From Solirubrobacterales bacterium (lineage in GTDB: Bacteria; Actinomycetota; Thermoleophilia; Solirubrobacterales; 70-9), in NCBI GenBank assembly GCA_025964255.1, contig JAOPZF010000110.1, forward strand, positions 1-40,650: a DNA stretch of 40,650 nucleotides, given 5' to 3'. Both the position numbers and the translations under genes were made by a program. This document shows, one piece after another, positions 3,765 to 18,173 of this stretch. A model generated the notes under the pieces. That model did no database searches. It was not told the DNA's origin and was given only the letters and a program-made list of their open reading frames with translations. Position 1 is the first letter of the stretch; each line of letters begins with the position of its first letter.

Positions 3765-4540
3765 GTGCGCACCAGCCGCGTCTTCAGGGCGCTCGATGCG
3801 CCGAGCATCCCCAGCGCGAACAGGGCGAACGCGATGCCGAAGCCGAGCGCGATCTTGCCCGGCTCCCAGCCTTCGATCAGCAGTGAGCGGAACGCCTGCA
3901 GCAGGTAGGAGACCGGGTTGAGCGTGGCGACGGTGTGGAACCACTGGGTCTGGATCAGGTTCAGCGGCAGCGACATCGAGGAGAGGAAGAGGAAGACGAA
4001 GAAGACCGGGAAGAGGCCCTGGACCGCTTCGCCCGACCCGGTCCGCAGCGCGGCGAAGAGGCCGATCGTGCCGAAGGCGACGGTGACGCAGACCGAAAGG
4101 GCGATGATCACGAAGAAGCCGCCGACCCCGGCGGTCAGTTCGGCGCCGAAGGCGAGGCCGACGATCAGGTAGGCGAGCGCCTGCATCAGTCCCAGCATCA
4201 GTGAGCCGGCGAGCAGGCCGCTGAGCAGCGCCGCGCCGCGCAGCGGGGTCAGCGCCATGCGGTTGAGGAAGCCGGTCTCGATGTCACGGGCGAGGTCGGT
4301 GCCGGAGTTGATCACCGAGAACAGCGCGCCCTGCATGAAGGTGATCGCGAGGGCGAAGGTCAGGTACGAATTGGTCGGGAAGCCGGGCAGGTTGACGACG
4401 CTTTTCAGCCCGCCCGAGTTCACCGCCAGCAGGAACATCGGGAAGATCAGCGAGGGGACGATCTGCGCCGGCTGGCGCAGGGTCCGGATGACCGAGCGGC
4501 GGGCGAGCTGCCCGACCTGGGTGGGGAGGGCGCTGTTCAC
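3761..4540 (-). CDS. ABC-2 type transporter permease (first permease of the exporter)
   Basis: A 259-residue inner-membrane permease of the DrrB/ABC-2 family. A cytoplasmic N-terminal helix (QLARRSVIRTLRQP) is followed by about six membrane segments. The motif DIETGFLNRMALTPLRG between segments two and three and the block LNPVSYLLQAFRSLL near the C-terminus are family hallmarks. The GTG start overlaps the ATPase stop in a GTGA junction, so the two are translationally coupled. Together with the ATPase and second permease it probably exports a hydrophobic compound; the substrate cannot be read from the sequence. Confidence 0.9.
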   Translation of the reverse strand: MNSALPTQVGQLARRSVIRTLRQPAQIVPSLIFPMFLLAVNSGGLKSVVNLPGFPTNSYLTFALAITFMQGALFSVINSGTDLARDIETGFLNRMALTPLRGAALLSGLLAGSLMLGLMQALAYLIVGLAFGAELTAGVGGFFVIIALSVCVTVAFGTIGLFAALRTGSGEAVQGLFPVFFVFLFLSSMSLPLNLIQTQWFHTVATLNPVSYLLQAFRSLLIEGWEPGKIALGFGIAFALFALGMLGASSALKTRLVRT

Positions 4541-5565
4541 GCCGCCTCGGCCGCTTCGGCGCGGGCGTCGTGGGCCTCCTCGGTGACCTCTTCGGCGCCC
4601 TCGAGGCTGTGGCCGGTCTTGGCGAGGAAGACGTCGTCGAGCGAGGGCGCGTGCAGCTGCAGCGTCTCGATCGTGATCCCCTCGGCGTCGAGCGCCCGCA
4701 CCACCTCGGCCAGCTCCGTGTCACCGCCGGCGAGCAGGACCGCGGCGCCTTTGGTGCCGGCGTCGCCGGGCTCGCCGAAGCGGGCGAGGACCGCCGCGGT
4801 GCGCTTGCGCTCGCCCGGGTCGCAGGGGACGACTTCGACCGTCGGCCGGCCGATCTCCGCCTTCAGCTCGGTCGGCGTGCCCTCGGCGACGATGTTGCCG
4901 TGGTCGATGATCCCGACCCGGTTGGCGAGCGCGTCGGCCTCCTCGAGGTACTGGGTGGTGAGGAAGACGGTGACGCCGTCCTCGCGCGCCAGCCGCGCGA
5001 CCTCCTCCCAGAGCGCGGTGCGGCTCTGGATGTCGAGGCCGGTGGTCGGCTCGTCGAGGAAGAGGATCCGCGGCTGATGGGCGAGGGCCAGCGCCAGGTC
5101 GAGCCGCCGTTTCATCCCGCCCGAGTAGCCGCCGACTTTGCGGTCCGCGGCTTTGGTGAGCCCGACGCGCTCGAGCAGTTCGTGGCCGCGCTCTTCGCGT
5201 TCGGCCTTGCCGAGACCGTGCAGCGCCGTCTGCAGCCGCATGTGCTCGTTGCCGGTGAGGAGCGGGTCGAGCGCCGCCTCCTGCAGGGCGGCGCCGATCG
5301 CCGAGCGGACCTTCGGCCCTTCTTTGACGATGTCGAAGCCGGCGACCTTGGCGGTCCCGGCGGTGGGCGGGAGGAGCGTCGTCAGCATCAGCACCGTCGT
5401 CGACTTGCCCGCGCCGTTGGGCCCGAGGAAGCCGTAAATTTCGCCCGGCTCGACCCGCAGGTTGATCCCGTCTACGGCCCGCGGCCCTTTTTTGAACTCG
5501 CGCACGAGGTCGACGGCTTCGATGCCGGCGCTCCCTGCTGTCTCCACTGAGCTAACTGCGGCCAT
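4537..5565 (-). CDS. DrrA-type ABC exporter ATP-binding protein
   Basis: A 342-residue ABC ATPase of the daunorubicin-resistance (DrrA) group. Walker A GPNGAGKST is at residues 48-56, the ABC signature YSGGM at 147-151 and Walker B ILFLDEP at 167-173. The C-terminal extension of roughly 110 residues ends in LHAPSLDDVFLAKTGHSLE, which is the conserved DrrA C-terminal motif. It has a good ribosome binding site (GGAGGG, 3 bases before the ATG). It is the first gene of a three-gene operon and is transcribed divergently from a MarR regulator 65 bases away, which suggests ligand-responsive control of this efflux pump. Confidence 0.93.
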   Translation of the reverse strand: MAAVSSVETAGSAGIEAVDLVREFKKGPRAVDGINLRVEPGEIYGFLGPNGAGKSTTVLMLTTLLPPTAGTAKVAGFDIVKEGPKVRSAIGAALQEAALDPLLTGNEHMRLQTALHGLGKAEREERGHELLERVGLTKAADRKVGGYSGGMKRRLDLALALAHQPRILFLDEPTTGLDIQSRTALWEEVARLAREDGVTVFLTTQYLEEADALANRVGIIDHGNIVAEGTPTELKAEIGRPTVEVVPCDPGERKRTAAVLARFGEPGDAGTKGAAVLLAGGDTELAEVVRALDAEGITIETLQLHAPSLDDVFLAKTGHSLEGAEEVTEEAHDARAEAAEAA

Positions 5566-5594
5566 CGTCCCTCCGGTGCTTGCTTCGCTCGAAA

Positions 5595-5623
5595 GTTGAG
5601 ATCCTCAACATTTGGGCTACCCT
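5595..5623 (+). promoter_or_regulatory. MarR promoter with overlapping palindromic operator
   Basis: A perfect inverted repeat GTTGAG-ATC-CTCAAC lies at 5595-5609. Its left arm contains a -35-like TTGAGA (5596-5601); 16 bases on is a -10-like TACCCT (5618-5623), then 7 bases to the GTG start at 5631. The palindrome therefore covers the -35 region of the regulator and lies in the shared 65-base region with the divergent ABC exporter. Autorepression and control of the exporter by the MarR protein is the likely reading; binding is inferred. Confidence 0.6.
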
Positions 5624-5630
5624 AGCTTCC

Positions 5631-6080
5631 GTGGCCCCCAACGTCAAACCGACTTCGGCCCCCGGCGACTCCCTCGCCGCCGAGGCCTGGGGCCTCCTCA
5701 TCCCCCTCGTCTACCCGCCCCGCTTCATCGAGATCGCCCACAAGGTGGGAGTGACCCCCTCGATCCTCGGCGCCCTCCGCTTCCTCGACCAGCCCCAGCC
5801 GATGGGCCGTATGGCCGAGCTCCTCCACTGCGACCCCTCCAACGTCACCGGCATCGTCGACACCCTCGAAGAGCGCAACCTCGCCAAGCGCAAACCTTCC
5901 GCAGCCGACCGCCGCGTCAAGGTGGTCGAACTCACCGCCGCCGGCAAGAAGCTGCGTGCGCGGGCGAGCGAGGAGATGTACAAGCCCCCGGCCTGGATCG
6001 AGGGCCTCTCAGCGGCGGACCAGCGCAAGCTGCGCGATGTCCTTCAGCGGGCTGGCGCCCCGGGCCCTGTTGAAAAGTAG
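5631..6080 (+). CDS. MarR family transcriptional regulator
   Basis: A winged-helix repressor of 149 residues, normal for MarR. The helix-turn-helix runs through about residues 54-82 (PMGRMAELLHCDPSNVTGIV), followed by the beta-wing with the conserved DRR (93-95) and LTAAGKKL. An upstream in-frame TTG would add 17 residues encoded by the operator region; GTG 5631 is preferred because it sits 7 bases after a TACCCT -10 box with no Shine-Dalgarno, the leaderless arrangement seen repeatedly in this window. It is divergent from a DrrAB-type exporter, its probable target. The ligand is unknown. Confidence 0.88.
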   Translation: MAPNVKPTSAPGDSLAAEAWGLLIPLVYPPRFIEIAHKVGVTPSILGALRFLDQPQPMGRMAELLHCDPSNVTGIVDTLEERNLAKRKPSAADRRVKVVELTAAGKKLRARASEEMYKPPAWIEGLSAADQRKLRDVLQRAGAPGPVEK

Positions 6081-6262
6081 ATCAGGGGCTGCCCGCCCGC
6101 CATTCGCGGACCGCGGCGCAGATTGGGATTGTGCCTCCCGCTATTCGCAGGGGACCACGAGCGCGGACCCTCTTTCTCGGGAGGGCTTTGTACGCCGGAT
6201 TCCTAGCCTGGCCCCGCCGTCGCCTCAGATCAAGTGTTCGCGAGTACGGCTGACTGATCTTC

Positions 6263-6268
6263 TAGGGT
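6263..6268 (+). promoter_or_regulatory. -10 box of the defence-like operon (TAGGGT)
   Basis: TAGGGT stands 9 bases before the methylase ATG, and no Shine-Dalgarno is present, so the operon's first message is probably leaderless. No convincing -35 is visible. The rest of 6081-6262 holds no gene, tRNA or repeat that I can support. Confidence 0.45.
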
Positions 6269-6277
6269 TAGCCGCTT

Positions 6278-8236
6278 ATGGCCCAAGCGCCGCATAGCAT
6301 TCTCCAGAGGATCGATTGGCCTGCGCTCGACCTTGATGTCGCCCGCCAGCAGCGAAATCGCGAGGTTTACGCACCGGCGGTCTCACTCTTCCGTTGGTGG
6401 GCGCGACGTCCCCATGCGCTGATCGGCGAGATTCTCGATGCGGCTGGCGATGCAGACTTACGGGTCTCGGACCCTTTCAGCGGAGGCGGCACGGTCGCCC
6501 TGGAGGCTGTACAGCGCGGTTTGGACATATACGCACAGGACCTCCATCCCTGGGCTGCGACTGGGCTTGCGACCGCTCTTGATCAAGTCGATCCGGAGGC
6601 GCTAGAACAGGGCGGAGAGGCTTGGCTTTCGGGACTCAGCGGACTCCGAAAAGAGCTTTACGGGGCGAACTGCGCGACTCACGGCGATTCGGAGACCTTG
6701 ACTACCTTTTGGGTCCGCAGGGCTCAGTGCCCAGGTTGTGACGGGCACGCGTATCTGTACCCCTATTCGATGGTCACTCGTGCAAGCCGAGCAAAGGGGG
6801 AGACCGACGCGTATTTTGGCTGCGGGGGTTGCGGAGCAATCACCCGATCCGCTATGACCGTGGTCGACCGGCGCTGCTCAAACTGTGGCCATGATCTGCG
6901 AGATCCCGACAAGGCCTGTGTGGCGGGCGGCCGCTTCCATTGTTGTGCGCCCGGCTGTGGTGAAACCTTCCAAGCCTTCGCTGCCAAGTTCACCTGGCAG
7001 CCAGTCCTTGTGCAGCGGCTTTGTGGAGGATTGGCCCATTTCGATCGCCTTAATGACGGCGATCGGGATGCGGCGGTTAAGAATCGTCCTGTGCTTCCGG
7101 CACCACTGGTAGCGAACATTCCGAGCGGGATAGAGACCCGCCGACTGCGGAATGGCGGAATTATCAAGTGGGCGGATCTCTATCCCGCACGCCAGCTCGA
7201 CACCATGCTCACAGCGGCCGCGGCGATCGACGAGATGCAGATCGACCCCGCTGTCGCGAACCGCCTGCGGTTGATTCTGTGCGGGGCCGCAGAGATGGCT
7301 GGATACGCAAGTCGCTGGGACCGCCACTACCCAAAGGCATTCGAGGTGACGGCAAACCACCGATTTAGTCTCACCGGTTTAGCCGCCGAGACGAACCTGC
7401 TCGCTGAGCGTGGTCGCGGAACCTTGGTCCGCCGACTCGGCCATTCGGTCAGAGCGGCACGCTGGGCAAATGAATTCGAAGGACGAAAACCGCTAAGGCT
7501 GAACAGCCGCCGCGGTGACCGACTCAAGCAAGATGAACTCGGGCAACCCACCGTCGTCCAAGGTTCGAGCACCTCTCAGCTCCTTCCCGACAACTCGGTC
7601 GACCTTGTCCTCACTGACCCGCCCTACTTCGACGACATCCAATACGCCGAGCTGGGCGCGTTGTTTTTGGTGTGGGCGCAGGCGACCTCGTTGGTCAGTA
7701 AGAGCATCCGGCTCGACCTACGGTCGGAGGTGGTCCCAAACTCGACGAGGGGGACCGACGCTGCCCGGTACTGCGAACTCTTGACGTCGGTGCTCCGTGA
7801 GACTGCACGAACGCTAAAAACCAACGGACGGGTAATCCTTACCTTCCATAACACTGCGGGACAGGCTTGGTGGGCCTTGGCCCGTGCGCTGGGGCATGCT
7901 GGTTTTTCCGTCTCAGCGCTCGCAGTCGGTCATGCCGAGAACGAGTCGGACCACTCCAAGAGAGGCCGACGGGCGTTCAGTCACGATCTGGTGCTTGAGT
8001 GCCGACGCGGATATAGTGATCCGAAGAAACTGGTTGTTGCGAATAAAGGCACCGGGCCGCAGTCCGAACAGTTGGTCGCCGCTGGGCTTGCGGTGGCGGA
8101 CCTCGCTGCTGAGCTTGCAGGCAAGAAGATCAGCCGAACCCGCAGTTACCGGACTTTTGGCAAGAGCTACCGGCGCCATCTCGGCGAGGGACCTAGCACC
8201 TATATCCGTCTTGGTAAGCCGATCGAAGGGCACTGA
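6278..8236 (+). CDS. DNA methyltransferase with zinc-ribbon insert (DUF1156-like)
   Basis: A 652-residue protein with the two key motifs of amino-group DNA methylases: S-adenosylmethionine-binding DPFSGGGT (65-72) and catalytic DPPY (447-450) in LTDPPYFDDIQYAEL. The DPPY type modifies adenine N6 or cytosine N4. The N-terminal WWARRP (40-45) resembles the DUF1156 group found in phage-defence loci. Between the two motifs is a cysteine-rich insert with four CxxC-like pairs (CPGC from 151, CGGC 182, CSNC 200, CCAPGC 222), most likely two zinc ribbons that could help DNA recognition. It is the first gene of a four-gene operon with 3-base or smaller gaps. The role proposed is to mark self DNA, or to modify DNA as part of an immune complex. 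GC and third-position bias are lower than in flanking genes. Confidence 0.85.
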   Translation: MAQAPHSILQRIDWPALDLDVARQQRNREVYAPAVSLFRWWARRPHALIGEILDAAGDADLRVSDPFSGGGTVALEAVQRGLDIYAQDLHPWAATGLATALDQVDPEALEQGGEAWLSGLSGLRKELYGANCATHGDSETLTTFWVRRAQCPGCDGHAYLYPYSMVTRASRAKGETDAYFGCGGCGAITRSAMTVVDRRCSNCGHDLRDPDKACVAGGRFHCCAPGCGETFQAFAAKFTWQPVLVQRLCGGLAHFDRLNDGDRDAAVKNRPVLPAPLVANIPSGIETRRLRNGGIIKWADLYPARQLDTMLTAAAAIDEMQIDPAVANRLRLILCGAAEMAGYASRWDRHYPKAFEVTANHRFSLTGLAAETNLLAERGRGTLVRRLGHSVRAARWANEFEGRKPLRLNSRRGDRLKQDELGQPTVVQGSSTSQLLPDNSVDLVLTDPPYFDDIQYAELGALFLVWAQATSLVSKSIRLDLRSEVVPNSTRGTDAARYCELLTSVLRETARTLKTNGRVILTFHNTAGQAWWALARALGHAGFSVSALAVGHAENESDHSKRGRRAFSHDLVLECRRGYSDPKKLVVANKGTGPQSEQLVAAGLAVADLAAELAGKKISRTRSYRTFGKSYRRHLGEGPSTYIRLGKPIEGH

Positions 8237-8239
8237 GAG

Positions 8240-9637
8240 ATGGCGATGACTGAGGAAGCCCGGATCGAGTTGATCGGCGAACGGCTTGCTGCCCATGATC
8301 CAACGAAACAGGAATACCTCACCTTGCCGTGGCGCGACGGCAGGGAACGCTTCCCGGTAATTCAGCTAGAGCTTGAGGCGACGGTCCTCAGCCCCTTCAG
8401 TCACCGTATCCGCGCTCAACTCGAGTCCGATCCGAGGGCGGAGATCGTTCGCACCGATCCCTTCTCAGAAGAGGCACAGGACGCAATCGCCGAGATTCTC
8501 CGTGAAACGGGGGAAAACTTCCAAGATCTTAAGCAGAACCTCGCCGACGACGGCCAGTTGCAGTTTGGTGTCGTCACCCGCGCTGGCCTTCTCGTGAACG
8601 CGAATCGCCGTGCCGTCGCCCTTCGGGACATCGGCAGGAGCTATATCGACGTTGCGGTGTTACCGGCCGATACGACGACGGCAGAGATCAACGATCTCGA
8701 GCTGACGCTTCAGATGCAGCGGGATTTCTGGGAGGAATACACCTTCACGAATCGACTCCTCTTCGTTGACGACTTGATCAACGTGCAGAATCGGTCAGGG
8801 GAGGAAGTCGCACGCGCACTCAACCCTGCGATCTCCCGCGATGAGAAATCAGTGCGCCGTGGAGTCGAGAAAGTCGACCAAGACACGCGGGTGTTGGTGA
8901 TGCTGCGTGAGATCCAGGAGCGAGGCGATAACCGCCTACCGCTGACCAGCTTCGATGAGCAGGAGGTCGCCCTCGAGGAGCTTGACACCAAAGTCAACGA
9001 CCTTAGGAAAGAGAATCCGACGGCCGCCAGTGAACTGCTGCAGGTCCGCCTGCTCGGGATCCTCTCCAACGTCCCGTACCGGCGCCTGCGCTATCTCGAC
9101 GGCGAGGTACTTGAGGACTACGTGATTCCGAGCCTAGCCGCAAGCGAGCTCTTCGCCGACGTGGTGCCGGCCCTTGGCTTGATGGAGTCATCGGAGGACG
9201 AGACTCCAGCGGAGCCCGACGGGCTTGACGTACTGGGTGATGCCGACGGTACCGAGGCGGGGTCAGCTGTTCCCGACGACGTCCAGAAAATCAGCGCACT
9301 AGTTGATCTACTCGCCTCAACCTACGAAGACGACCCCGTGGAACTGCCAACGGAGGAAGGCCCGCGCCGGCTAGAACGAGAAGAGGTCTGCAAAGGTCTT
9401 CGAAGTGTTCTGACCGAGGCCGCCGCCGAAATCGAGATCGATCGCCGCCGTGACAGTCGTCTCCTTCGTCCCGCAAACCTTGTCGAAGACGCAGATCGCA
9501 AGCTGCGAGCGGCAACCGACGCTTATGCGGGCGTGAAGGATGACGGCGAGTTCGACTCCGCGACCTTGCGAGACGCACTTGATCGTGTTGGCGTGCGTGT
9601 GGAATCGCTGCAGGCCGAACTCGACGCAACCGCTTAG
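8240..9637 (+). CDS. ParB/Srx-like domain protein of the defence-like operon
   Basis: A 465-residue protein. Residues about 95-160 carry the ParB/sulfiredoxin-like pattern: DDGQ (103-106), then GLLVNANRRAVALRDIG with the double Arg at 123-124, then IDVAVLP. In ParB relatives this fold binds or hydrolyses nucleotides, and the DGQ plus Arg arrangement recalls DndB/DGQHR-type proteins. The rest is helical and charged. Residues about 308-345 form an acidic linker (SSEDETPAEPDGLD) and the C-terminus is probably helical. It starts 3 bases after the methylase stop, and the helicase starts immediately after its own stop, so the three are surely co-expressed. It could regulate the operon, couple methylase to helicase, or be a nuclease. 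The domain call is moderately sure; the function is not known. Confidence 0.68.
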   Translation: MAMTEEARIELIGERLAAHDPTKQEYLTLPWRDGRERFPVIQLELEATVLSPFSHRIRAQLESDPRAEIVRTDPFSEEAQDAIAEILRETGENFQDLKQNLADDGQLQFGVVTRAGLLVNANRRAVALRDIGRSYIDVAVLPADTTTAEINDLELTLQMQRDFWEEYTFTNRLLFVDDLINVQNRSGEEVARALNPAISRDEKSVRRGVEKVDQDTRVLVMLREIQERGDNRLPLTSFDEQEVALEELDTKVNDLRKENPTAASELLQVRLLGILSNVPYRRLRYLDGEVLEDYVIPSLAASELFADVVPALGLMESSEDETPAEPDGLDVLGDADGTEAGSAVPDDVQKISALVDLLASTYEDDPVELPTEEGPRRLEREEVCKGLRSVLTEAAAEIEIDRRRDSRLLRPANLVEDADRKLRAATDAYAGVKDDGEFDSATLRDALDRVGVRVESLQAELDATA

Positions 9638-11518
9638 ATGGCTGGAACGCTCGCGTTCGTTGTTCGCGACTCGGGGAGGGTAATTGAGGCTCGCCGTGAC
9701 GCCGGTGTCTCCAACCGCTTCTGGTCACGCGCGCGTTCAGAGTGGGGCTCGAATGGACGCGAGCCTGCCGTTGCCTTAGAGGTGCCTCTCGAGGATTTTC
9801 TCGACAGAACTGCCTGGCTTCGCGATGCCTGCATTCGCCACGGTGTAGGACTCGAGTGGGACGCGAAGAGCCGCGAGTTGGTAGGTCGTCACCGTGCCGA
9901 AGGGGCAGTCTTGCAGGCCACTCTCGAGAACGGAGTCCAACTCGAGAATGTCAGCCAGCGCTTGAGCGGATCGCGTTTCGCGGGTCGCGAACTCCGCAGC
10001 TTCCAGTGCCGAGACCTCGCCGAGCTCCTCGGCCTCGCAAATGGCGCCAACTTTTCGGTGCCGGGAGCCGGGAAGACGACGGTCCAAATCGGTTGTTATG
10101 AGGCCGAAAGGACGGCTGGCCGAGTTGAGCGGATGCTCGTGGTTGGACCACTTGCGGCGTATGAAGTTTGGCAGGAGGAAGTGGGCCAGTGTCTGTCCCC
10201 GGCTCCGAACATTCACTATCACGACGGCAATCCGATCCCCGCGGACATCGAGATCCTCTTTGTCAACTACCAGCGCTTGATTTTCTCCTATAGCTCCACC
10301 GCGGATTGGGTGGCAGAGGTTCCCACCTTGGTCTGCTTGGACGAGGCTCATCGGATCAAGCGTGGGCGAGGGGGCGAGTGGGGATCGGCCTGTCTTGATC
10401 TCGGCTATCTTGCGTCGCGGCGTGATGTCCTCACTGGCACGCCCGCGCCGCAGAGCCCCCGTGATCTCGGCGTCCTGCTTGATTTTCTCTGGCTCGGTCG
10501 GGGTCACGAGGTCCTTCCAGCCAGCGCCTGGGCGCGACGTCCCGGGTCAGAAGCAGGGCGCGAAGTAGGAAAGGCAATCGCACCTCTTTATGCGAGGACG
10601 ACGAAGAGCGACCTCGGACTTCCCTCGGTCGAGATGAATGTTGTTCCAGTTGAGTTGCAGGGTCTACAGCGAGATATCTACACGGCACTCCGCAGTCGGT
10701 ATGCAGGGACGTTGCGTCTCGATGCACGCGCCCAAGCGAACTTCGCCCGCATGGGAGAAGTTGTCATGTATCTCCTCGAGGCTGCCACCAACCCTGACTT
10801 ACTCACTGCTGGTTCGTCGACCGACGACCCGCCGTATTTCCGTCATCCGCCCCTGGAGATTGCCGCTGACATGACGCTGGCGGATCTACTCGCCGCTTAC
10901 GGCGAGTACGAAACGCCCGCCAAGTTTGTCAAGTTGCTTGAGATCCTCAAGGAGAACCAGGAGCGCGGGCGGAAGACCGTCGTTTGGTCGAACTTCGTTC
11001 GTAACCTTGAGTTGCTGCGTAGCGTACTTTTCGAGGCCTACCATCCAGCAGTGGTCCACGGCGGCATTCCATCCGTCTTCAACAACCCACGTGCCGACCC
11101 CAACCGCGAGGGCGAGCTTGAGCGCTTTCGTAATAACCCTGACTGCTGGGTCCTGCTTGCTAACCCGGCGGCAGTGGGCGAGGGGATCAGCCTCCACCGC
11201 GCATGTCACGAGGCTGTGTACCTCGAGAGAACCTTTAATGCTGGTCAGTACCTACAAAGTCTTGACCGCATCCACCGGCTCGGTCTGCGACCTGACGACG
11301 AGACGCGGGTCACCTTCCTTATCTGTCAAGGGACGATCGATCAAGTCGTTGATGTTCGCGTGAGTGAGAAGGCGGCGCGCTTGGGCGACATGCTGCGCGA
11401 CCCCGATATCGTAACCATGGCGCTGCCCGACGAGGAGGATATTGGGCCGCCTTTCAATAGCGCCGATGTTGCCGACGTCGAGGCGCTCTTCGCTCACTTG
11501 CAGGCCAAGGATGGCTGA
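9638..11518 (+). CDS. SNF2-type helicase/translocase of the defence-like operon
   Basis: A 626-residue superfamily 2 ATPase of the SNF2/RapA type. An N-terminal region of about 115 residues precedes the Q-motif-like FQCRDLAEL (122-130). Motif I is VPGAGKTT (141-148), motif II DEAH (235-238), motif III TGTP (266-269). In the C-terminal RecA lobe, GEGISLH and SLDRIHRLG (541-549) are motifs V and VI of SNF2 proteins. These enzymes translocate along double-stranded DNA rather than unwinding it, which fits a restriction motor. The ATG directly abuts the TAG of the ParB-like gene, and the next gene starts inside this one. No nuclease domain is fused here, so cleavage would have to come from neighbours. 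Confidence 0.88.
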   Translation: MAGTLAFVVRDSGRVIEARRDAGVSNRFWSRARSEWGSNGREPAVALEVPLEDFLDRTAWLRDACIRHGVGLEWDAKSRELVGRHRAEGAVLQATLENGVQLENVSQRLSGSRFAGRELRSFQCRDLAELLGLANGANFSVPGAGKTTVQIGCYEAERTAGRVERMLVVGPLAAYEVWQEEVGQCLSPAPNIHYHDGNPIPADIEILFVNYQRLIFSYSSTADWVAEVPTLVCLDEAHRIKRGRGGEWGSACLDLGYLASRRDVLTGTPAPQSPRDLGVLLDFLWLGRGHEVLPASAWARRPGSEAGREVGKAIAPLYARTTKSDLGLPSVEMNVVPVELQGLQRDIYTALRSRYAGTLRLDARAQANFARMGEVVMYLLEAATNPDLLTAGSSTDDPPYFRHPPLEIAADMTLADLLAAYGEYETPAKFVKLLEILKENQERGRKTVVWSNFVRNLELLRSVLFEAYHPAVVHGGIPSVFNNPRADPNREGELERFRNNPDCWVLLANPAAVGEGISLHRACHEAVYLERTFNAGQYLQSLDRIHRLGLRPDDETRVTFLICQGTIDQVVDVRVSEKAARLGDMLRDPDIVTMALPDEEDIGPPFNSADVADVEALFAHLQAKDG

Positions 11519-12401
11519 CCGATCAATTCCGTCGCGCCATGAGCTGCGGAGTGCTCACCAGGTAGCTCGTACTCTCCAAGCGCCCTTGACGCCGCTCGGC
11601 GACGCCCGGGAGTCATTTCGTCGCTTGCCAAGCAATGGCGTCCTCGGGGGCCCGGACTTCCTCGCTGGCCAACGGGTGTTGGCCGAGCTTGAGTTGATAG
11701 AGCCCTCTGGTCGGAATCTGGCAGTTGACGAGCAGGTTCTGAGAATTGCGGCCATGCAAGATGGCGCTGCGATACGCCTTCTTCTCGAGCTCCTCCTCAT
11801 CCGCCGACCGCCGGGCTGGCTACGCAGCGTTACTGCCACCAAGCGGGTTCGAGAGGCATTAATCCCCGATCGGGAGCGCACTACGGTCGAGGAGGTGATC
11901 TCAGATCCCGATCTTCGCGAACTGATCCTGCTCGAGGCAGGTCGGCGGGTTAACTCGCAACGGCTTGCCGAAGTGGGCGAGATAGGTGAGGAATACATCC
12001 TCGAGCGATCTCGCCGCCAGCTCCACGATCTTGAGAGGCCCGACCTTGCGGCGGCGGTTATCCGAGTCAGCACGATTTCCGATCAACTCGGCTATGACAT
12101 CACCGCTCCTGACCTCGCTGGCGAAGACCGTCGTTTCGAGGTCAAGGCAACTAGGCGAGCAGGTTGGCAGGCCGAGGTCCACATAACTCGGAACGAGTTT
12201 GAACAGGGTGTCCGTGATGCGAGCTGGTGGCTTGTCGTCGTCGAGATCGATGCCGAGGACCAACCAAAGCTCCTCGGGTCCTGCCGCGCCGATTCATTAG
12301 CGGCGATGGTACCCGCCGATCGACATGAGCACAGCAAGTGGATGACTGTCCGTCTTCAGCAGATCGCACCTCTGCTTCAAGAGGGGTTGCCGCCAGCCTG
12401 A
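11511..12401 (+). CDS. DUF3883 (Mrr-like PD-(D/E)XK) domain protein
   Basis: A 296-residue protein. Its C-terminal half matches the DUF3883 pattern: GEIGEEYILE (about 157-166), GYDITAP with D196, then FEVKATR with E210 and K212, then ITRNEFEQG. This D...ExK set is the restriction-endonuclease-like fold. The N-terminal 150 residues are helical and may bind DNA or partners. The start ATG overlaps the helicase stop by 8 bases (ATGGCTGA), so translation is coupled. Its place at the end of a methylase-ParB-SNF2 operon makes it the leading candidate for the cleaving subunit. Its last 25 bases overlap the 3' end of the convergent gene at 12377-13690. Confidence 0.82.
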   Translation: MADRSIPSRHELRSAHQVARTLQAPLTPLGDARESFRRLPSNGVLGGPDFLAGQRVLAELELIEPSGRNLAVDEQVLRIAAMQDGAAIRLLLELLLIRRPPGWLRSVTATKRVREALIPDRERTTVEEVISDPDLRELILLEAGRRVNSQRLAEVGEIGEEYILERSRRQLHDLERPDLAAAVIRVSTISDQLGYDITAPDLAGEDRRFEVKATRRAGWQAEVHITRNEFEQGVRDASWWLVVVEIDAEDQPKLLGSCRADSLAAMVPADRHEHSKWMTVRLQQIAPLLQEGLPPA

Positions 12402-13690
12402 CAGGCGAGAGCAGCCAGAGTCGGCGCACTTGAAATTGGAAGGGAGTCGGAAAGGAGGTAGTCGAGGGCGACGTCGACAAGGTCGCCGTCCGGGTCGGGC
12501 CGCATAAGTGCTCGGAACTCGTCGAGGTCGGGAATCAGCTCGGAATCCGCTTCTAGCCGCAGAAGCCAATCGTCTAGATCCTCCATCAAGCCGCCGATCA
12601 CCGGTGGCTCGAGCGCCATCCCCCACGCAATTCCACCTTCCAAGTTTATGCGCCTCCGCGCCACCTCAAAAAACCGCCGGCAGTCTTCACTGCCCCCAGC
12701 GGCAATGTGAAGCATCCACGTCGCGGTCAGCGCTGAGAACGCGTAGTCGACGTTATCTCTGCCCACCACCAACTCCATTTGTTCAAGAATCCATCTTCGA
12801 GCCCCGGTTACATGATCAAATAGTGCGGCGAGAAGGCCCCAGATCGCAGGCATTAGCGCAAAGACGAAGTTGTCGTATTCCTCGTTTCGTCCGTAGTAGG
12901 GGGCGACCGACCTCATCACACCGTCGCCGGCCTGCCACTCTTCTAGTTGGACAAGACACCGGTTCCCTAGCTCCGGATGTCGGGAGCCAAGCAGTGCAGC
13001 ATGGATTGCCTCAGCGCAGTGAAGTCCCACGTAGGTTCCGTATTGAGCTGGGTCGAGCCGTGTCTCCTCGAGCTCCATTTTGAGAATTCGCAAGAAATGC
13101 TCAATATAGGTTGAGTCTTGTCTGGCGAGGGTGGCATAAGCGCGAAGCCAGGCGGCGGGGAATCCGATTCCCTCTGCGTGGCGCCAGACTCCCTGAAGGT
13201 CGATGTCGCCCCAGATCCCTGCTTTCAGGGTGTTCGCTAGCTCCATCACGTCGAGCCTGTCGCTGACCCGCCGATGTTGTGAAAGAACGTCGCAGAGCGC
13301 CTTTTCGATGGCGTTTGCCTCGGCCATCATGTAGATGCGGTAATTGAAGACGCCGAAGAGCCTTTGTGAAGTCTTCACCCGGCTGCTTTCTCCGGAGCCG
13401 CTAAGCACCAGGTGAAAGTGAAATAGGGGCTTCTCAAAGAGGTCCGTCTCTTGAGAAAAGACCTTGCCGGCATTCTGTGCCATCTGGCCGGAGGCGACCG
13501 ACTCAACCTCGAAGATAAAGAGCGGAAACTGGTCGCTAGTTGAGCGCAGCCACGCGACATCCACGGGCGCTTCGGATTCGCCCGGAGCAGCAACGTTGAA
13601 CTCGTCCTCCGTCGCATATCCAAGAGACGCTCCCAGACTCAACAAGCTTTCTATCCACGCCCTTCCCTCGGGAAGCCTGTGCTCTGCCAC
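12377..13690 (-). CDS. Protein with PD-(D/E)XK-like N-terminus and helical C-terminus
   Basis: A 437-residue protein without a family I can name. Residues about 10-85 look like a restriction-endonuclease-like core: a helix, then APVDVAW (D44), then FPLFIFEVES (E61, E63), then a helix containing QMAQNAGKVFSQ. The usual ExK is ExE here, a variant common in nuclease-like proteins of defence loci. The remaining 350 residues are predicted helical with many Trp and Leu, perhaps helical repeats. The start is GTG 13690, 7 bases after TAAACT (13698-13703) with no Shine-Dalgarno, so leaderless expression is likely. It converges on the methylase-helicase operon and overlaps its last gene tail to tail by 25 bases, and it shares the lower GC, so it probably belongs to the same island. 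Confidence 0.6.
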   Translation of the reverse strand: MAEHRLPEGRAWIESLLSLGASLGYATEDEFNVAAPGESEAPVDVAWLRSTSDQFPLFIFEVESVASGQMAQNAGKVFSQETDLFEKPLFHFHLVLSGSGESSRVKTSQRLFGVFNYRIYMMAEANAIEKALCDVLSQHRRVSDRLDVMELANTLKAGIWGDIDLQGVWRHAEGIGFPAAWLRAYATLARQDSTYIEHFLRILKMELEETRLDPAQYGTYVGLHCAEAIHAALLGSRHPELGNRCLVQLEEWQAGDGVMRSVAPYYGRNEEYDNFVFALMPAIWGLLAALFDHVTGARRWILEQMELVVGRDNVDYAFSALTATWMLHIAAGGSEDCRRFFEVARRRINLEGGIAWGMALEPPVIGGLMEDLDDWLLRLEADSELIPDLDEFRALMRPDPDGDLVDVALDYLLSDSLPISSAPTLAALACQAGGNPS

Positions 13691-13697
13691 TCAGCGA

Positions 13698-13703
13698 AGT
13701 TTA
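13698..13703 (-). promoter_or_regulatory. -10 box (TAAACT) of the convergent island gene
   Basis: On the minus strand TAAACT is followed by 7 bases and the GTG start at 13690, matching the leaderless layout of other genes here. No clear -35 is seen. Confidence 0.4.
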
Positions 13704-13822
13704 CGCGGGGGAGCGGGGGCCTGTCCCTTCTCCAGACAGCTTGAGTCGGTCTCGCGCCTTTCGGATGGTCCGTTGAATCCACCCTTTTTGTCGGGCGATT
13801 GACCTCGGTGTGGGCCCGGGCC

Positions 13823-14122
13823 ATGGGCTCGCGATTACATTTCGTCGAGCGCTCCGACCCCGACTTCGTCGATGTCGCAGAGGATGTGCTCGCGTTCGCC
13901 GTTGACCGCGATCTCCGCCGCTGGCTCGAGATCTGGCCGCCGCCGGAAGGCGCCGAGAACGATGCCGAGGCCGGGCGCCGAAGGATTCGATTGTCGCCCG
14001 GCGACGATCTGCCTGACTGGGAGCAGGTCGAGAGGCATGCAAAAACAGAGCGAGAGTGTCAGCCCGCCGAGTCGATCAGGCGCTCGGCGGCATTGCGGGC
14101 GGCTCGGGCGGCGTCGGGGTAG
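13823..14122 (+). CDS. Hypothetical acidic protein, doubtful gene
   Basis: An open frame of about 100 codons starting MGSRLHFVERSDPDFV, with third positions mostly G or C until about 14030, which argues that at least this part was once coding. It is acidic (LEIWPPPEGAENDAEAG). There is no ribosome binding site or -10 box, and its last 64 bases lie over the TetR remnant on the other strand, where codon bias is lost. It may be a decayed gene at the edge of the island. I recognise no family. Confidence 0.25.
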   Translation: MGSRLHFVERSDPDFVDVAEDVLAFAVDRDLRRWLEIWPPPEGAENDAEAGRRRIRLSPGDDLPDWEQVERHAKTERECQPAESIRRSAALRAARAASG

Positions 14123-14330
14123 CTGCCGAGGTCGGCGGCGACGGTTGCGCCGTCGTAGAGCATCAGATGTTGGGCCGCCAGGAGGGGCGGGTCGGGGGCG
14201 CCTAGGTCGGTGGCTAGTTGTTGGAAGAGGTCCTTGACCCAGGCGCGGTGGCGGCGGCCCACCACTGATGGCGGGGCGCCGTAGCTGAGGGGTGCTCGGC
14301 CGGCCTGGTCGAGGTCGCTCGGTCGCGCCG
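14059..14330 (-). pseudogene. C-terminal remnant of a TetR family regulator
   Basis: The minus-strand frame reads HRAWVKDLFQQLATDLGAPDPPLLAAQHLMLYDGATVAADLG and ends AARAARNAAERLIDSAG. This is the ligand-binding C-terminus of TetR/AcrR regulators (consensus Ga-x-dp-x-LA-x-qL-x-lLydGA). The DNA-binding N-terminus is missing: the homology begins right where another, intact TetR gene ends (14331). The frame is open upstream into that gene, so there is no natural start. A deletion between two tandem TetR genes, or insertion of one into the other, would give this arrangement. Confidence 0.65.
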
Positions 14331-14948
14331 TCAGGGCTTCCGGATCCGGGCGATCAGCTCGTCGAGGAAGCCGCGGGCGAGGTCGACGATCGGGACTGTC
14401 TCGTCGAGTAGCCAGGAGGTTTCGAGGCCGTTGAAGAACGCGATGATGACGTCTGCCTCACGGTTGAAATCGATGTTGGGGCGGAGCTCGCCGTCCTCCT
14501 GGGCCTGTCCCAGCAGGAAGGTGATCGAGAAGCGGAACTGGTTGTGGTTGTCGATCATCCGCGCGCGCAGCGGAGCGGTCGGTGACGTGCTCTCGGCCAG
14601 GAGCATCGTCCATAGCGTCGTGCGCCGGCGGTCTTCGTGCTGGAACTCCATGATCTGAACGAGCTGGCCGATGCCGGCCAGACCGCGGTGTTGGGCGACC
14701 CGCAGACGGACGGCCATGAACTGCCGCTCGTGCTCGTCGAGGACCGCGTGGACGAGCGCTTCCTTGGACTCGAAATGGTGCAGCACGGCGGGGCGCCCTA
14801 TCCCGGCGCGGGCCCCGACGTCGGCGAGCCGGGTGGCGTGGTAGCCCGACTCGGCGAACAGCTCGGCCGCGGCGACGACGAGCGCCTTGCGCCGGGCTTC
14901 CCCGCGGGCGACCCCGGCATCAGTTCGTCCTCGCGGCCGCGCGCTCAC
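14331..14948 (-). CDS. TetR/AcrR family transcriptional regulator
   Basis: A complete 205-residue regulator starting with GTG. The N-terminal helix-turn-helix is clear: ARRKALVVAAAELFAESG, then ATRLADVGARAGIGRPAVLHHFESKEAL at about residues 20-66. The helical C-terminal domain ends FLDELIARIRKP, so the gene is full length. The next plus or minus-strand neighbours do not make an obvious target operon; a large exported protein lies 50 bases upstream on the same strand. The ligand is unknown. Directly downstream lies the remnant of a second TetR gene. Confidence 0.88.
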   Translation of the reverse strand: MSARPRGRTDAGVARGEARRKALVVAAAELFAESGYHATRLADVGARAGIGRPAVLHHFESKEALVHAVLDEHERQFMAVRLRVAQHRGLAGIGQLVQIMEFQHEDRRRTTLWTMLLAESTSPTAPLRARMIDNHNQFRFSITFLLGQAQEDGELRPNIDFNREADVIIAFFNGLETSWLLDETVPIVDLARGFLDELIARIRKP

Positions 14949-15001: not shown

Positions 15002-18000
15002 TCACCAGCCGCAGTTGCCCACCTTCTCCTCTTCTTCCGTTTCGATCATCCCCGGGTGCGCGATCGTCCAGTGGGAGTCTTCGAAGAGTTCGGGCGCGGT
15101 GAGCGCCGCACCCTGTCCGGGCGGGCCGAAGATCTTTTCGGCCAGGCCCGAGCTGACCTGCTTGGAGGACTTCTTGGTGAAGCTCCCGTCGAGCATCCCG
15201 TAGGCACCGGAGGCCATGAGCTTGCCCCGTTCGAAGCTGACGAGTGGGAAGAAGACCGAACTGGAAGGCGCGCCCCGCCACGGGTGCCATTCGGTCGGAT
15301 AGACCTTGTTGGTCATGCAGTAGAGCCCTTCCTGGACGCCCGGCTGGGCACCGGGGAACGCGACCAGTTCGAAGGCCGCGGGCAGGATCGCTTTCCACAT
15401 CCACTGGTTGATCCCGAGTTCGATGGCCGAGCTCTGTTGCTGGATTCCGGTGGCGTTGATGCCCCAGGGCCCGGCCGCCCCGGCGGCGGCGGCGGACAGC
15501 TTGCCCCAGTCGGTGACGAGGATCTCTTCGATCGCCCCCAGCCCCGCCGACATCGCGGTCAGCCGGCTCTTCACCTTGCCGCCGATTTCGTCGGCTGCGG
15601 CCTGGATCTGCCAGTCGGGCGAGTATTCGCCGTTTTCCTGCTCGAGTTCGCCGGCGAGGCCGAGCACCGAGGCGATCGCGCCGAGGCCCTCGCCCACCGT
15701 GGGTATGTTCGAGCCCGCGTGCAGGATCGCGCTGGCGAGGCTGAGCTTGCCGGCCGTCGCGTTGCCGCTGCCGCTGCCCGGCGGCAGGGCATCGAGGACT
15801 TCGCCCGCGATCTGCTGCGCGTCGACGGCCGGGCTCTGGCCGCCGAGTGGTTCTTTCAGCGCGCCGACCATCTTCCGTACGTCGGCGACGTCGTCGAGCT
15901 CGGTCTCCAGCTCACTCTGCACGGCTTCGAATTCCGCCTGGGTGAACGAGACGTTTTCGCCGGCGGGGTACTTCTGCCTTTCGAGCTCGTTCTCGGTCGC
16001 GTCGATATCCAGCGAGAGGTCGCAGTAGGAGGAGCGGAAGTCGGGCTCTGCGGGTCGGTAACAGGATCCTTCGCCCGGCGTGAGCCCGAGCGCTTCGGCC
16101 AGGTACTGGATGGCGGCGACCTTTCCTTCGGTGTTGGTCTGCGGCCACGGGACGCCGGGCTGGTAGGTGACCTGGTCGAGTTCGTAGTTCGGCGTCCCGA
16201 TCGCGTCGGCGAGGTCTGGCGAGAGAGCCGATTCCGGGTTGCGGGTGAGCAGGCCGTGTAGGGAGCCATCGCCGCCGTGAGACAGCTCTTCGCTGGTTTC
16301 CGCGACTTCCGGTTCGACGTGTCCGGGCTCGACGACTTGCGGGTTGGCGCCGTTGCCGACGAACGCGTAGCCGCCGCTGCCGTTGAGGCTGAGGAAGGTC
16401 CAAGGGCTGGCGCCCAGCCGCGCGAGCGCCTGCCCGAGAGCCGTCGCCGCGCCGGAGTCGGGCTGGGCGTCGCCGATGCTCTGCACGATCACGGTCTGCA
16501 GTGAGCTGGTCCGGTTCAGCAGCGCCGTCATCGCTTCTTCCTGGGCCTGTCCTTCGCCGGTGGTCGAGATGGTTGAGAAGGCGACCGGCGTGCCCAGTTC
16601 GGGTTCGAGATCGGGACCGAGGACGAGGACCTCGAACCCGCCGACGGCGCCGGACACGCTCGCCGGGTATTCGGTGGTGCCGACCCGGATCGTGTTGGAA
16701 AACGAGGTGCCGGAGGCCTCGGTGTCGAAGGCGAACCGTTCGGGATTGACGAAGCCGAAGTATTCCTTCCCGCCGTCGAGTGAGACGCCGGGTCGCAGCC
16801 AGCCGGCGAGTTCGCCGTAGCGCTGGTTTTCGCTTTCGTTGATGGCGCCGAGGGCGATGCCCTGGTTTTCGGTCCTCGGTCCACGCCTGCCGGGGCCATA
16901 GCTTTCGATCGCCGAGAAACCGGTGCGGGCGTCGACGGGATCCGTGTTGCAGTTGGCGTAGCGGCAGGAGGAGACGACGAGAACGTTCCGGCCGGGAGCG
17001 CTTTCGGCCGCCATCTTCTGGGCGATTTCGATGTGGCTGCCGTTCAGGGCGACGTTTTCGGTGCGGATCAGTTCGAGCGTCCCCGCATCCAGGAGGACGA
17101 ATCTCGCGCCGCCTTCACCGTTGACGGGGAAGGGATAGAACGAGGCGCCGATGCGGATGCCGGCCGTTTCTTCGACTTCGGCCCTGGTGTCGATCGCGAC
17201 GCCGATCGGTTCGAAGTTCGGTTTCACTTCGACGTCGGTGACCGTCGTCGCGCAGCCCGGGACAGCCTGTGGCTGGGGTCCGCCTTCCGGGCTCGCCGCG
17301 TTGCGACTGTCGACGATCGTCAGCGCTCCCTTCGGCAGCTGGTTCAACGGCATCGAGGCGATCGGGCCGCTTCCCGGGTTCACCGCCTGGCCGGACTGGG
17401 TGGAACCGGAGACAGCGCAGTCAGGGGCGCTCGAGCTCGCGCTCGCGGCGGTACCGCGCGTCTTCGCGCCGCTCTCGGTCACGGTCAACGCGACCCGGTA
17501 GTCACCGGGATCGCTCGCGAGCAGCCGTGGGCGACGGCTTTCGGCGCCGCGCAGCGAGACCCGGGAGCCGACCGGAGCGCCGACGACCCGCCAGCGGAAG
17601 CCCAGCTTTCCGCCGTGCGCCGAGCGCGTCTTGCGACCGTCGAGGCGGGCGGCGTGGCTGGCGACGATCCGGCGCGGCTGCCTGATCGCGGGCAGGGGAG
17701 CGTCGCGCCTCACCGTGACCACGTCTCGCACCAGCGCCCTGCCACCGTTCCGGGTGCGGGCCTTGACCGTAATCCGGTTGCGGCCGAAACGGACCCCGTC
17801 GCCGTGGTCGAGGACAATCGCCCGTTGCTGTCCCCGCTCGAGGGGAAGTTCGGATTCGACCCGATGCCCGTCGAGCTGGACCACGGCGCTGCGCAGATCG
17901 CGGCGCGCCTTGACGTGAAGGACGACGGTGCCCCGTGCCTGGTGGACGGTCTTGACCACGATCACGGGCCCGTGGGCAGGCTTCGCCGCCGCCGAGCTGC

Positions 18001-18088
18001 AAGGTGCGGTAGCGGCGCCGAGCCCAAGCATGGCCAAGACCGCCACCAGCAGGATCGACGGTCCAGTCCTCAACACGGTGCTCCTCAT
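15002..18088 (-). CDS. Large exported protein of unknown function, ILEI-like domain
   Basis: A secreted protein of about 1,028 residues. ATG 18088 is chosen because AAGGAG stands 6 bases before it; an in-frame GTG at 18103 would place that site inside the gene. The signal peptide is TGPSILLVAVLAMLGLGAATAP, cleaved near SSAAAKPA. Residues about 30-200 are Arg-rich beta structure, including a PKD-like region (LLASDPGDYRVALTVTESG). In the middle, the segment GFEVLVLGPDLEPELGTPVAFSTIS ... VIVQSIGDAQPDSGAATALGQALARLGA ... YAFVGNG (in pieces) resembles the ILEI/PANDER fold, which is an inference. The C-terminal half has a possible coiled coil around SELETELDDVADVRKM and several Cys, and ends VGNCGW. 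No catalytic motif is seen. It may act at the cell surface. Confidence 0.72.
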   Translation of the reverse strand: MRSTVLRTGPSILLVAVLAMLGLGAATAPCSSAAAKPAHGPVIVVKTVHQARGTVVLHVKARRDLRSAVVQLDGHRVESELPLERGQQRAIVLDHGDGVRFGRNRITVKARTRNGGRALVRDVVTVRRDAPLPAIRQPRRIVASHAARLDGRKTRSAHGGKLGFRWRVVGAPVGSRVSLRGAESRRPRLLASDPGDYRVALTVTESGAKTRGTAASASSSAPDCAVSGSTQSGQAVNPGSGPIASMPLNQLPKGALTIVDSRNAASPEGGPQPQAVPGCATTVTDVEVKPNFEPIGVAIDTRAEVEETAGIRIGASFYPFPVNGEGGARFVLLDAGTLELIRTENVALNGSHIEIAQKMAAESAPGRNVLVVSSCRYANCNTDPVDARTGFSAIESYGPGRRGPRTENQGIALGAINESENQRYGELAGWLRPGVSLDGGKEYFGFVNPERFAFDTEASGTSFSNTIRVGTTEYPASVSGAVGGFEVLVLGPDLEPELGTPVAFSTISTTGEGQAQEEAMTALLNRTSSLQTVIVQSIGDAQPDSGAATALGQALARLGASPWTFLSLNGSGGYAFVGNGANPQVVEPGHVEPEVAETSEELSHGGDGSLHGLLTRNPESALSPDLADAIGTPNYELDQVTYQPGVPWPQTNTEGKVAAIQYLAEALGLTPGEGSCYRPAEPDFRSSYCDLSLDIDATENELERQKYPAGENVSFTQAEFEAVQSELETELDDVADVRKMVGALKEPLGGQSPAVDAQQIAGEVLDALPPGSGSGNATAGKLSLASAILHAGSNIPTVGEGLGAIASVLGLAGELEQENGEYSPDWQIQAAADEIGGKVKSRLTAMSAGLGAIEEILVTDWGKLSAAAAGAAGPWGINATGIQQQSSAIELGINQWMWKAILPAAFELVAFPGAQPGVQEGLYCMTNKVYPTEWHPWRGAPSSSVFFPLVSFERGKLMASGAYGMLDGSFTKKSSKQVSSGLAEKIFGPPGQGAALTAPELFEDSHWTIAHPGMIETEEEEKVGNCGW

Positions 18089-18173
18089 GCGCATCTCCTT
18101 CACTGGATCGGGAGGCTCGGCGATGACCGCGACTCATAGTCAGTCTGATCGACAGCGAGGACATCGGCTCGGA

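Follow-up and report, generated by a model that had tools for sequence, protein, structure and literature searches.

A ParB-like, SNF2 and DUF3883 gene module joined to varied methylase cassettes: a putative ATP-dependent restriction-modification locus in a Solirubrobacterales bacterium

What do a DNA methylase, a ParB-like protein, an SNF2-family motor and a DUF3883 nuclease accomplish when their genes stand in a single run? The question is raised by a 40,650-nucleotide stretch of DNA from a Solirubrobacterales bacterium (assembly GCA_025964255.1, contig JAOPZF010000110.1, positions 1 to 40,650), hereafter the window, in which four plus-strand genes encode these proteins and a fifth gene, G5, converges on them (Table 1). 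An original prediction had taken the five together for a complete defence system. Judged from the sequences, defence of the restriction-modification (R-M) type is very likely, and the four plus-strand genes would, on balance, constitute an ATP-dependent R-M system of unnamed architecture. This reading rests on gene order, a fold model of the ParB-like protein, intact motifs in the motor and the nuclease, and co-inheritance with methylases; from these we infer the biochemical steps, their order and any activity against phages or plasmids.

The same genes in the same arrangement recur in other genera and phyla, which was the check that the original prediction had proposed, and the island is therefore more than a product of chance. 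A genome scan with a single ParB sequence confirmed nothing, and a second scan therefore used an SNF2 alignment on a collection described as holding 84,980 species; it gave 476 relatives, and because only the best 80 were used, the survey leans to close kin. Gene models at these loci are the longest open reading frames (ORFs), and the loci counted are also those that supplied the family profiles, so that the counts are not blind. A ParB-like gene stands beside SNF2 in 78 of the 80 loci (the exceptions are L066 and L067), NOV_C, the Pfam family of the DUF3883 nuclease, is present in 57, and both are present in 55. The ParB-SNF2 gap lies between -8 and +6 bases in 58 of the 78, with 17 longer overlaps and three longer gaps. 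Methylases occur in 74/80 loci (C5 alone in 47; MT8, the label of the window's family, alone in 15; MT11 in 11; C5 with MT8 in one), and Vsr occurs in 43/80. Around 47 unrelated viral SNF2 genes used as a control, which lie on viral contigs and so on a different kind of DNA from the surveyed loci, a methylase was found three times and ParB or NOV_C never. In the host's own phylum, a ParB-profile survey matched eight of 396 genomes, its own included; all five strong matches (E <= 5.1e-11) are followed by SNF2, and the three weak ones are without it. Genome G001, one of the five, has methylase, ParB, SNF2 and NOV_C arranged as in the window, its methylase matching the MT8 profile at 1.9e-34 together with a weak DUF1156 match. 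The ParB-SNF2-NOV module is thus rare but widespread.

Carriage on plasmids and viral contigs fits a role as mobile cargo. The SNF2 search matched 90 plasmid records, and 12 loci were examined, five of them reached through the ParB search. ParB-like relatives were found on five plasmid records from five genera, each followed by SNF2 and then by NOV_C. An IS481 transposase is interposed in the run on a Mesorhizobium plasmid, NOV_C is present on a Streptomyces plasmid as an ORF missing from the ORF table, and a Paracoccus plasmid carries a methylase, a BglII-like protein, ParB, SNF2 and NOV_C. On two Bacillota plasmids, from Lactococcus (L015, 1486-9500) and Enterococcus (L155, 1486-9431), the ParB-like and SNF2 genes come immediately after type III Mod and Res, in what looks like a type III form of four genes. 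A Lactiplantibacillus plasmid has ParB-SNF2 with a methylase 4.7 kilobases off, and Exiguobacterium and Priestia plasmids have ParB-like and SNF2 genes with a C5 methylase nearby; the Priestia SNF2 relative (L157, 6858-9413) bears an N-terminal PLD-like domain at residues 38-194. The module also lies on six IMG/VR contigs (L097-L102), two of them alike, and L098-L102 encode a BglII-like protein and an adenine-type methylase that resembles that of Paracoccus at 91-97% (76% for L098). In genome G012 (L167, 3765-14385) ParB-SNF2 stands beside GmrSD, a ResIII/T5orf172 protein and an Eco57I-type methylase match, perhaps another partner class.

Are the individual proteins those that a restriction system would use? 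The methylase has the DPPY motif read in it by the original prediction, at residue 447, and both F-x-GGG and DPPY are kept in 17/17 family members, as expected of an R-M methylase with an intact catalytic motif; RWWARR is likewise kept in 17/17. Four CxxC pairs had been claimed, of which three strict ones were found (151, 182, 200), those at 151 and 200 being kept in all 17. In the motor, the predicted GAGKT, DEAH and HRLG motifs are invariant in seven aligned sequences, the window's included, and the protein is 46-56% identical to 16 MT8-group relatives; in Pfam it matches SNF2 better than ResIII (0.0024, under cut-off). The D...ExK signature attributed to the nuclease also holds, since the Glu, the Asp of GYDI and ExK are invariant in 71/71 aligned rows representing 69 distinct sequences, which puts an apparently intact nuclease in the same operon as the methylase. 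The protein matches the PADLOC candidate family PDC-S36 at 3.5e-16, and DUF3883 is a restriction-endonuclease-type domain according to PMC3710099. We consider it likely that NOV_C is the cutter and SNF2 the motor.

The ParB-like protein contains the DGQ and NANRR motifs noted earlier, and a Pfam search up to E 1 gave no family for it; across PADLOC, NCBIfam and PHROGs it gave only a weak hit to phrog_12047 'ParB-like' (0.046) and one to MecI (0.13), with no PADLOC match. Its AlphaFold2 model, built from 49 sequences, has a mean predicted local distance difference test (pLDDT) score of 91.4, and the 28 best Foldseek matches are all chains of ParB, KorB, Noc, pNOB8 ParB or PadC (best E 1.7e-4). 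The template-modelling scores by query length are low (0.14-0.27), probably because the alignment covers just a portion of the chain. The model supports a ParB-type fold, and several of the best Protein Data Bank matches (ParB, KorB, Noc) carry bound cytidine diphosphate or an analogue of cytidine triphosphate (CTP). Such a fold favours a clamp-like coupler, without thereby proving use of CTP, and by analogy with ParB we tentatively regard coupling as a possible role of this protein.

The methylase of the window belongs with the module by descent as well as by position. MT8 methylases, 31-37% identical to the window's, occur at 16/80 loci (12 Actinomycetota, two Acidobacteriota, two Pseudomonadota), in every case within 189 bases of the triad of ParB, SNF2 and NOV_C genes. 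Distances among them are correlated with the corresponding ParB, SNF2 and NOV_C distances (r 0.84, 0.89 and 0.90), values reached in 0/2000 permutations. The SNF2 tree places the MT8 rows, the window among them, in one group (support 90, not starred), and the MT11, MT19 and type III rows each in a single group; the Bacillota and MT19 rows are where its long branches come together. The tree omits L067, whose SNF2 frame is broken, and L101, whose SNF2 is identical to that of L100, and its support values are from the Shimodaira-Hasegawa-like approximate likelihood ratio test only. Partner labels change 12 times on this tree against 58.4 when shuffled, a clustering which implies that methylase type and motor lineage were co-inherited and swapped only a few times.

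It is in the choice of partners that the picture of a complete, self-contained system has to be revised: the conserved operon stands, and the survey shows a restriction module that pairs with several methylase and restriction-enzyme cassettes. Its partners are a C5 methylase with NaeI, GIY-YIG, DUF4928 or a protein labelled UP, an Eco57I-like protein, a BglII-like protein, or type III genes, and the module therefore rides with varied R-M cassettes rather than forming one closed system. Pfam names NaeI, GIY-YIG, DUF4928 and Eco57I-like proteins among these companions, the BglII-like one falls just below the Pfam cut-off (25.2 vs 26 bits, E 1.6e-5), and UP matches a PADLOC Type II restriction enzyme at 2.8e-19. 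Type II cassettes of this sort (C5 methylase, Vsr, and NaeI, GIY-YIG or DUF4928) resemble the window in combining methylase and restriction functions, and relatives of the module lie inside them. They differ in that the module adds ParB-SNF2-NOV, and in that the methylase of the window is DUF1156-like, with none of these enzymes found in that stretch.

In three lineages, a restriction-enzyme-like protein beside the module has lost or changed its catalytic residues. The protein C10 lies just upstream of ParB in 12 of the 16 MT8 loci; its PD...ExK motif is lost in all 12 copies beside ParB and kept in both nearby paralogues (L018, L022). A C10 profile run against the window listed nothing at E 20 with the HMMER filters on. 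In the C5 clade UP precedes ParB, and none of these 28 copies keeps the acidic residue: 27 have Gln in its place and one has Arg, three copies directly upstream of over-long ParB ORFs being included. The corresponding residues in three paralogues linked to methylases are Glu, Asp and Val, so that one of them also is without the acid. As QxK is found in active Mrr-type nucleases, the UP copies may be active. The BglII-like protein, from six contigs with five distinct sequences, has a Gln aligned to the BstYI Glu that we take to be catalytic, in a weak alignment (E 0.07). These substitutions suggest enzymes demoted to readers. Two further candidates were set aside: a winged helix-turn-helix-like gene, S7, was considered as a NaeI-derived reader and profile comparison gave no relation, and degenerate-looking DUF4928 copies at L068 and L032 were not counted because the catalytic residues of that family could not be named.

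Taken together, these observations allow a mechanism to be outlined. The methylase would mark host target sites, as its family suggests. Unmarked sites would probably be recognised by the methylase itself in the compact form seen in the window, and by a separate reader gene in many relatives. By analogy with ParB, the ParB-like protein may then close on DNA as a nucleotide-gated clamp that links recognition to the SNF2 motor, which would travel along the DNA, and NOV_C would cut. A bolder scheme, which we hold to be doubtful, is that a degenerate Type II enzyme (in the window, the methylase) acts only as a reader that loads the clamp, which recruits SNF2 and a shared NOV_C or PLD nuclease, so that the destroyer could be re-aimed in evolution by swapping methylase plus reader; no such reader-clamp-motor restriction was described in the literature searched. 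Several findings weigh against the R-M reading as a whole. NOV_C is absent from 23/80 loci, including the MT8 loci L021 and L034 (some loci are cut by contig ends), and therefore cannot be the sole nuclease everywhere. The MT8 family is not exclusive to the module: a methylase search matched 120 plasmid records, and all four loci examined (Rubrobacter, 40% identity over the full length; the other three, about 25%) are without this ParB/SNF2 family. A Bradyrhizobium plasmid (L016) has a more distant SNF2 relative with weak ParB-like neighbours only; three such genes in succession (59, 34 and 31 bits) precede it at 4229-9359. Finally, the window yielded neither a separate reader nor a restriction enzyme of a catalogued kind, so the reader proposed there for unmodified sites is a guess.

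Could G5 fill this gap as the window's own reader or restriction enzyme, in a five-gene system as originally predicted? We think this unlikely, although it fares better than the other alternatives. The gene encodes a restriction-endonuclease-like D...FEVES motif and overlaps the nuclease gene convergently by the predicted 25 bases, and a homologue adjoins the triad at L075, yet none was found in 295 other genomes, G5 being confined to the host among the 296 searched. By a post hoc hand estimate, if fewer than 1% of genomes contain G5, a G5 neighbour somewhere in 80 loci would arise by chance with a probability no higher than about 0.004, and the L075 homologue perhaps keeps an optional role open. 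On the other side, L075 is the only such case among the 80 related loci, no G5-sized ORF convergent to NOV appears in the ORF listing of the G001 operon (in which G5 itself was not searched for), and a search of viral contigs and plasmids returned no homologue. A second host copy, 33% identical (L152, 8404-9759), lies among metabolic genes, with an AMP-binding enzyme on one side, a GGDEF-EAL gene on the other and a dehydrogenase nearby, with no R-M gene among the six genes scanned around it. G5 matched no family in four libraries (Pfam, PADLOC, NCBIfam, PHROGs), its AlphaFold2 model (pLDDT 40.5) was unusable, so that no fold search was made from it, and a relation to C10 was insufficiently supported (profile probability 9%, E 0.0037). 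We therefore do not count G5 as a fifth core gene; of the predicted five-gene island, the four-gene plus-strand operon is what stands. At L068 (10725-11771) and L032 (10695-11591), the degenerate-looking DUF4928 copies converge on NOV_C in the position that G5 has in the window.

It is also unlikely, and a little more so, that the triad is no restriction machine in its own right but an accessory that degrades or processes DNA once a cognate Type II enzyme has cut it, in which case the window copy would need an enzyme such as G5 to make the initial cut. Many of the C5-type loci (32/48) do carry NaeI (15), GIY-YIG (11) or DUF4928 (6), and NOV_C is absent in 13/15 NaeI loci vs 10/65 others (Fisher p 2.8e-7), a weak complementarity, as if an active NaeI could replace NOV_C. 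Allowing for relatedness, however, the contrast is not significant (median p 0.125): few pairs differ and none in the opposite direction, so that loss of NOV_C through gain of NaeI is consistent in direction and was not accepted as an explanation. Moreover, 10 of the 12 C10-bearing loci of the window's type have no active-looking C10 copy in the stretch covered (some contigs end early), and the proteins scanned from the window matched no family of restriction enzymes, nor was one found around the G001 operon with our profiles.

A system like BREX or DISARM, blocking replication or trapping unmarked DNA with no cutting, is improbable. It shares with the window a methylase region like DUF1156 and PglX and an SNF2 motor with weak DrmD matches. 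The methylase matches the DUF1156 model NF042963 of NCBIfam 20 locally (5.2e-18), with 64.6 bits against a cut-off of 1000, and the PADLOC PglX model over residues 423-575 alone. Its nearest full-length relative, an MT8-type methylase on a Rubrobacter tropicus plasmid (L009, 9995-21168), has a weak DrmE_C match (2.3e-4, below the cut-off) in its vicinity, along with a PLD protein and a helicase, perhaps making up a DISARM-like system. The core partners of BREX, DISARM and the DUF1156 anti-phage cluster are nevertheless unmatched: as predicted, PglZ, BrxC, DrmB and DrmC are missing from the matches listed for the five proteins, DrmD (1.2e-5) and DrmA (9e-4) appear only as weak, partial matches of the motor, and the nuclease residues are intact in all the distinct sequences. 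A modification-dependent, type IV-like system, or a plasmid-conflict system in which the ParB-like protein counters the partition of competing plasmids, would suit the ParB fold and the carriage on plasmids and viral contigs and is very improbable, as the tight link and co-inheritance with methylases favour a protective mark over a target mark.

The R-M reading thus leaves the question of a name, and here the original prediction that the set fits none was upheld: PADLOC 2.0.0 and NCBIfam 20 gave partial matches only, as did PHROGs for the methylase and SNF2 regions, with no whole system in the libraries scanned. No DndC/D or Ssp protein and no HsdS-like subunit is among the matches listed for the five proteins, nor did type III Mod or Res match any of them above cut-off, and with their defining genes unmatched we did not file the locus under BREX, DISARM, Dnd, type I or type III. 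Type III systems resemble relatives of the module in which Mod-Res precedes ParB-SNF2 in one gene run, as on the Lactococcus and Enterococcus plasmids; the window differs in that none of its five proteins matched either subunit above cut-off. The best PADLOC match of the motor is Zorya ZorD (5.3e-14), which likewise joins an SNF2 helicase with an Mrr-like nuclease domain, whereas in the window the nuclease is a separate NOV_C protein, a methylase is present and no ZorA or ZorB is among the matches listed. The abstract of PMC5737866 describes CglI as an ATP-dependent restriction enzyme with an endonuclease and a DEAD-family ATPase, nucleoside triphosphate hydrolysis and proposed translocation; separate helicase-like ATPase and nuclease subunits are thus common to both, but that text mentions no ParB-like subunit, and the parts are compared by description, not homology. 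R-M operons with MORC ATPases similarly combine an SWI2/SNF2 helicase with nucleases, but have a MORC-type ATPase and, in the accessible part of PMC2292703, no mention of ParB. No ParB-SNF2-DUF3883 module was described in the literature searched, most subscription papers lying outside its scope, so that absence is not proven.

If the proposed reading is true, a single clamp-motor-nuclease module has been combined with six or more kinds of DNA-marking cassette, and such joining would explain how ATP-dependent restriction changes its target sequence by part swapping. It would also suggest what ParB-like proteins, and restriction enzymes that look inactive, may be doing in R-M loci, and it poses the question of whether ParB-type clamp loading drives DNA destruction in immunity. 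The ParB-like family, with no PADLOC or Pfam match, would then be an addition for defence-system finders.

As regards the locus itself, an ORF check placed the five genes where the original prediction had them, on the same strands and with its intergenic gaps of 3, 0 and -8 bases; the last implies a nuclease start at the ATG, which is likelier than the first in-frame start, TTG.

Table 1. Genes of the locus, with positions in the window and the basis of each assignment
Feature	Position	Strand	Basis
DNA methylase, DUF1156-like, family label MT8, 652 amino acids	6278..8236	+	Pfam N6_N4_Mtase 1.2e-6; DPPY N6/N4 type, CxxC pairs
ParB-like protein, 465 amino acids, predicted nucleotide-gated DNA clamp	8240..9637	+	AlphaFold2 model and Foldseek
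SNF2-family DNA translocase, 626 amino acids	9638..11518	+	Pfam SNF2-rel_dom 2.2e-13, Helicase_C 1.3e-7
NOV_C/DUF3883 PD-(D/E)xK-type nuclease	11511..12401 (ATG 11511; ORF open from TTG 11442)	+	Pfam NOV_C 1.9e-9
Convergent gene G5, 437 amino acids; doubtful, perhaps optional part	12377..13690	-	D...FEVES, restriction-endonuclease-like motif without Lys

The host assembly comprises 4.0 Mb in 277 contigs (90.9% complete, 6.5% contamination). The flanks are ordinary among the genes scanned, with an ABC-2 permease and MarR and TetR regulators, and a minus-strand ORF of 1033 amino acids at 15002-18103 is unmatched in Pfam at E 0.001. A search for direct repeats of >=16 bases flanking the island (5400-14600) gave a single 29-base pair, located inside genes. 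The G+C content is 59-63% over 6001-14000 and 65-74% in the other 1-kilobase steps, and the methylase gene contains a 25-base inverted repeat (88%) with a 20-base loop at 7122-7191.

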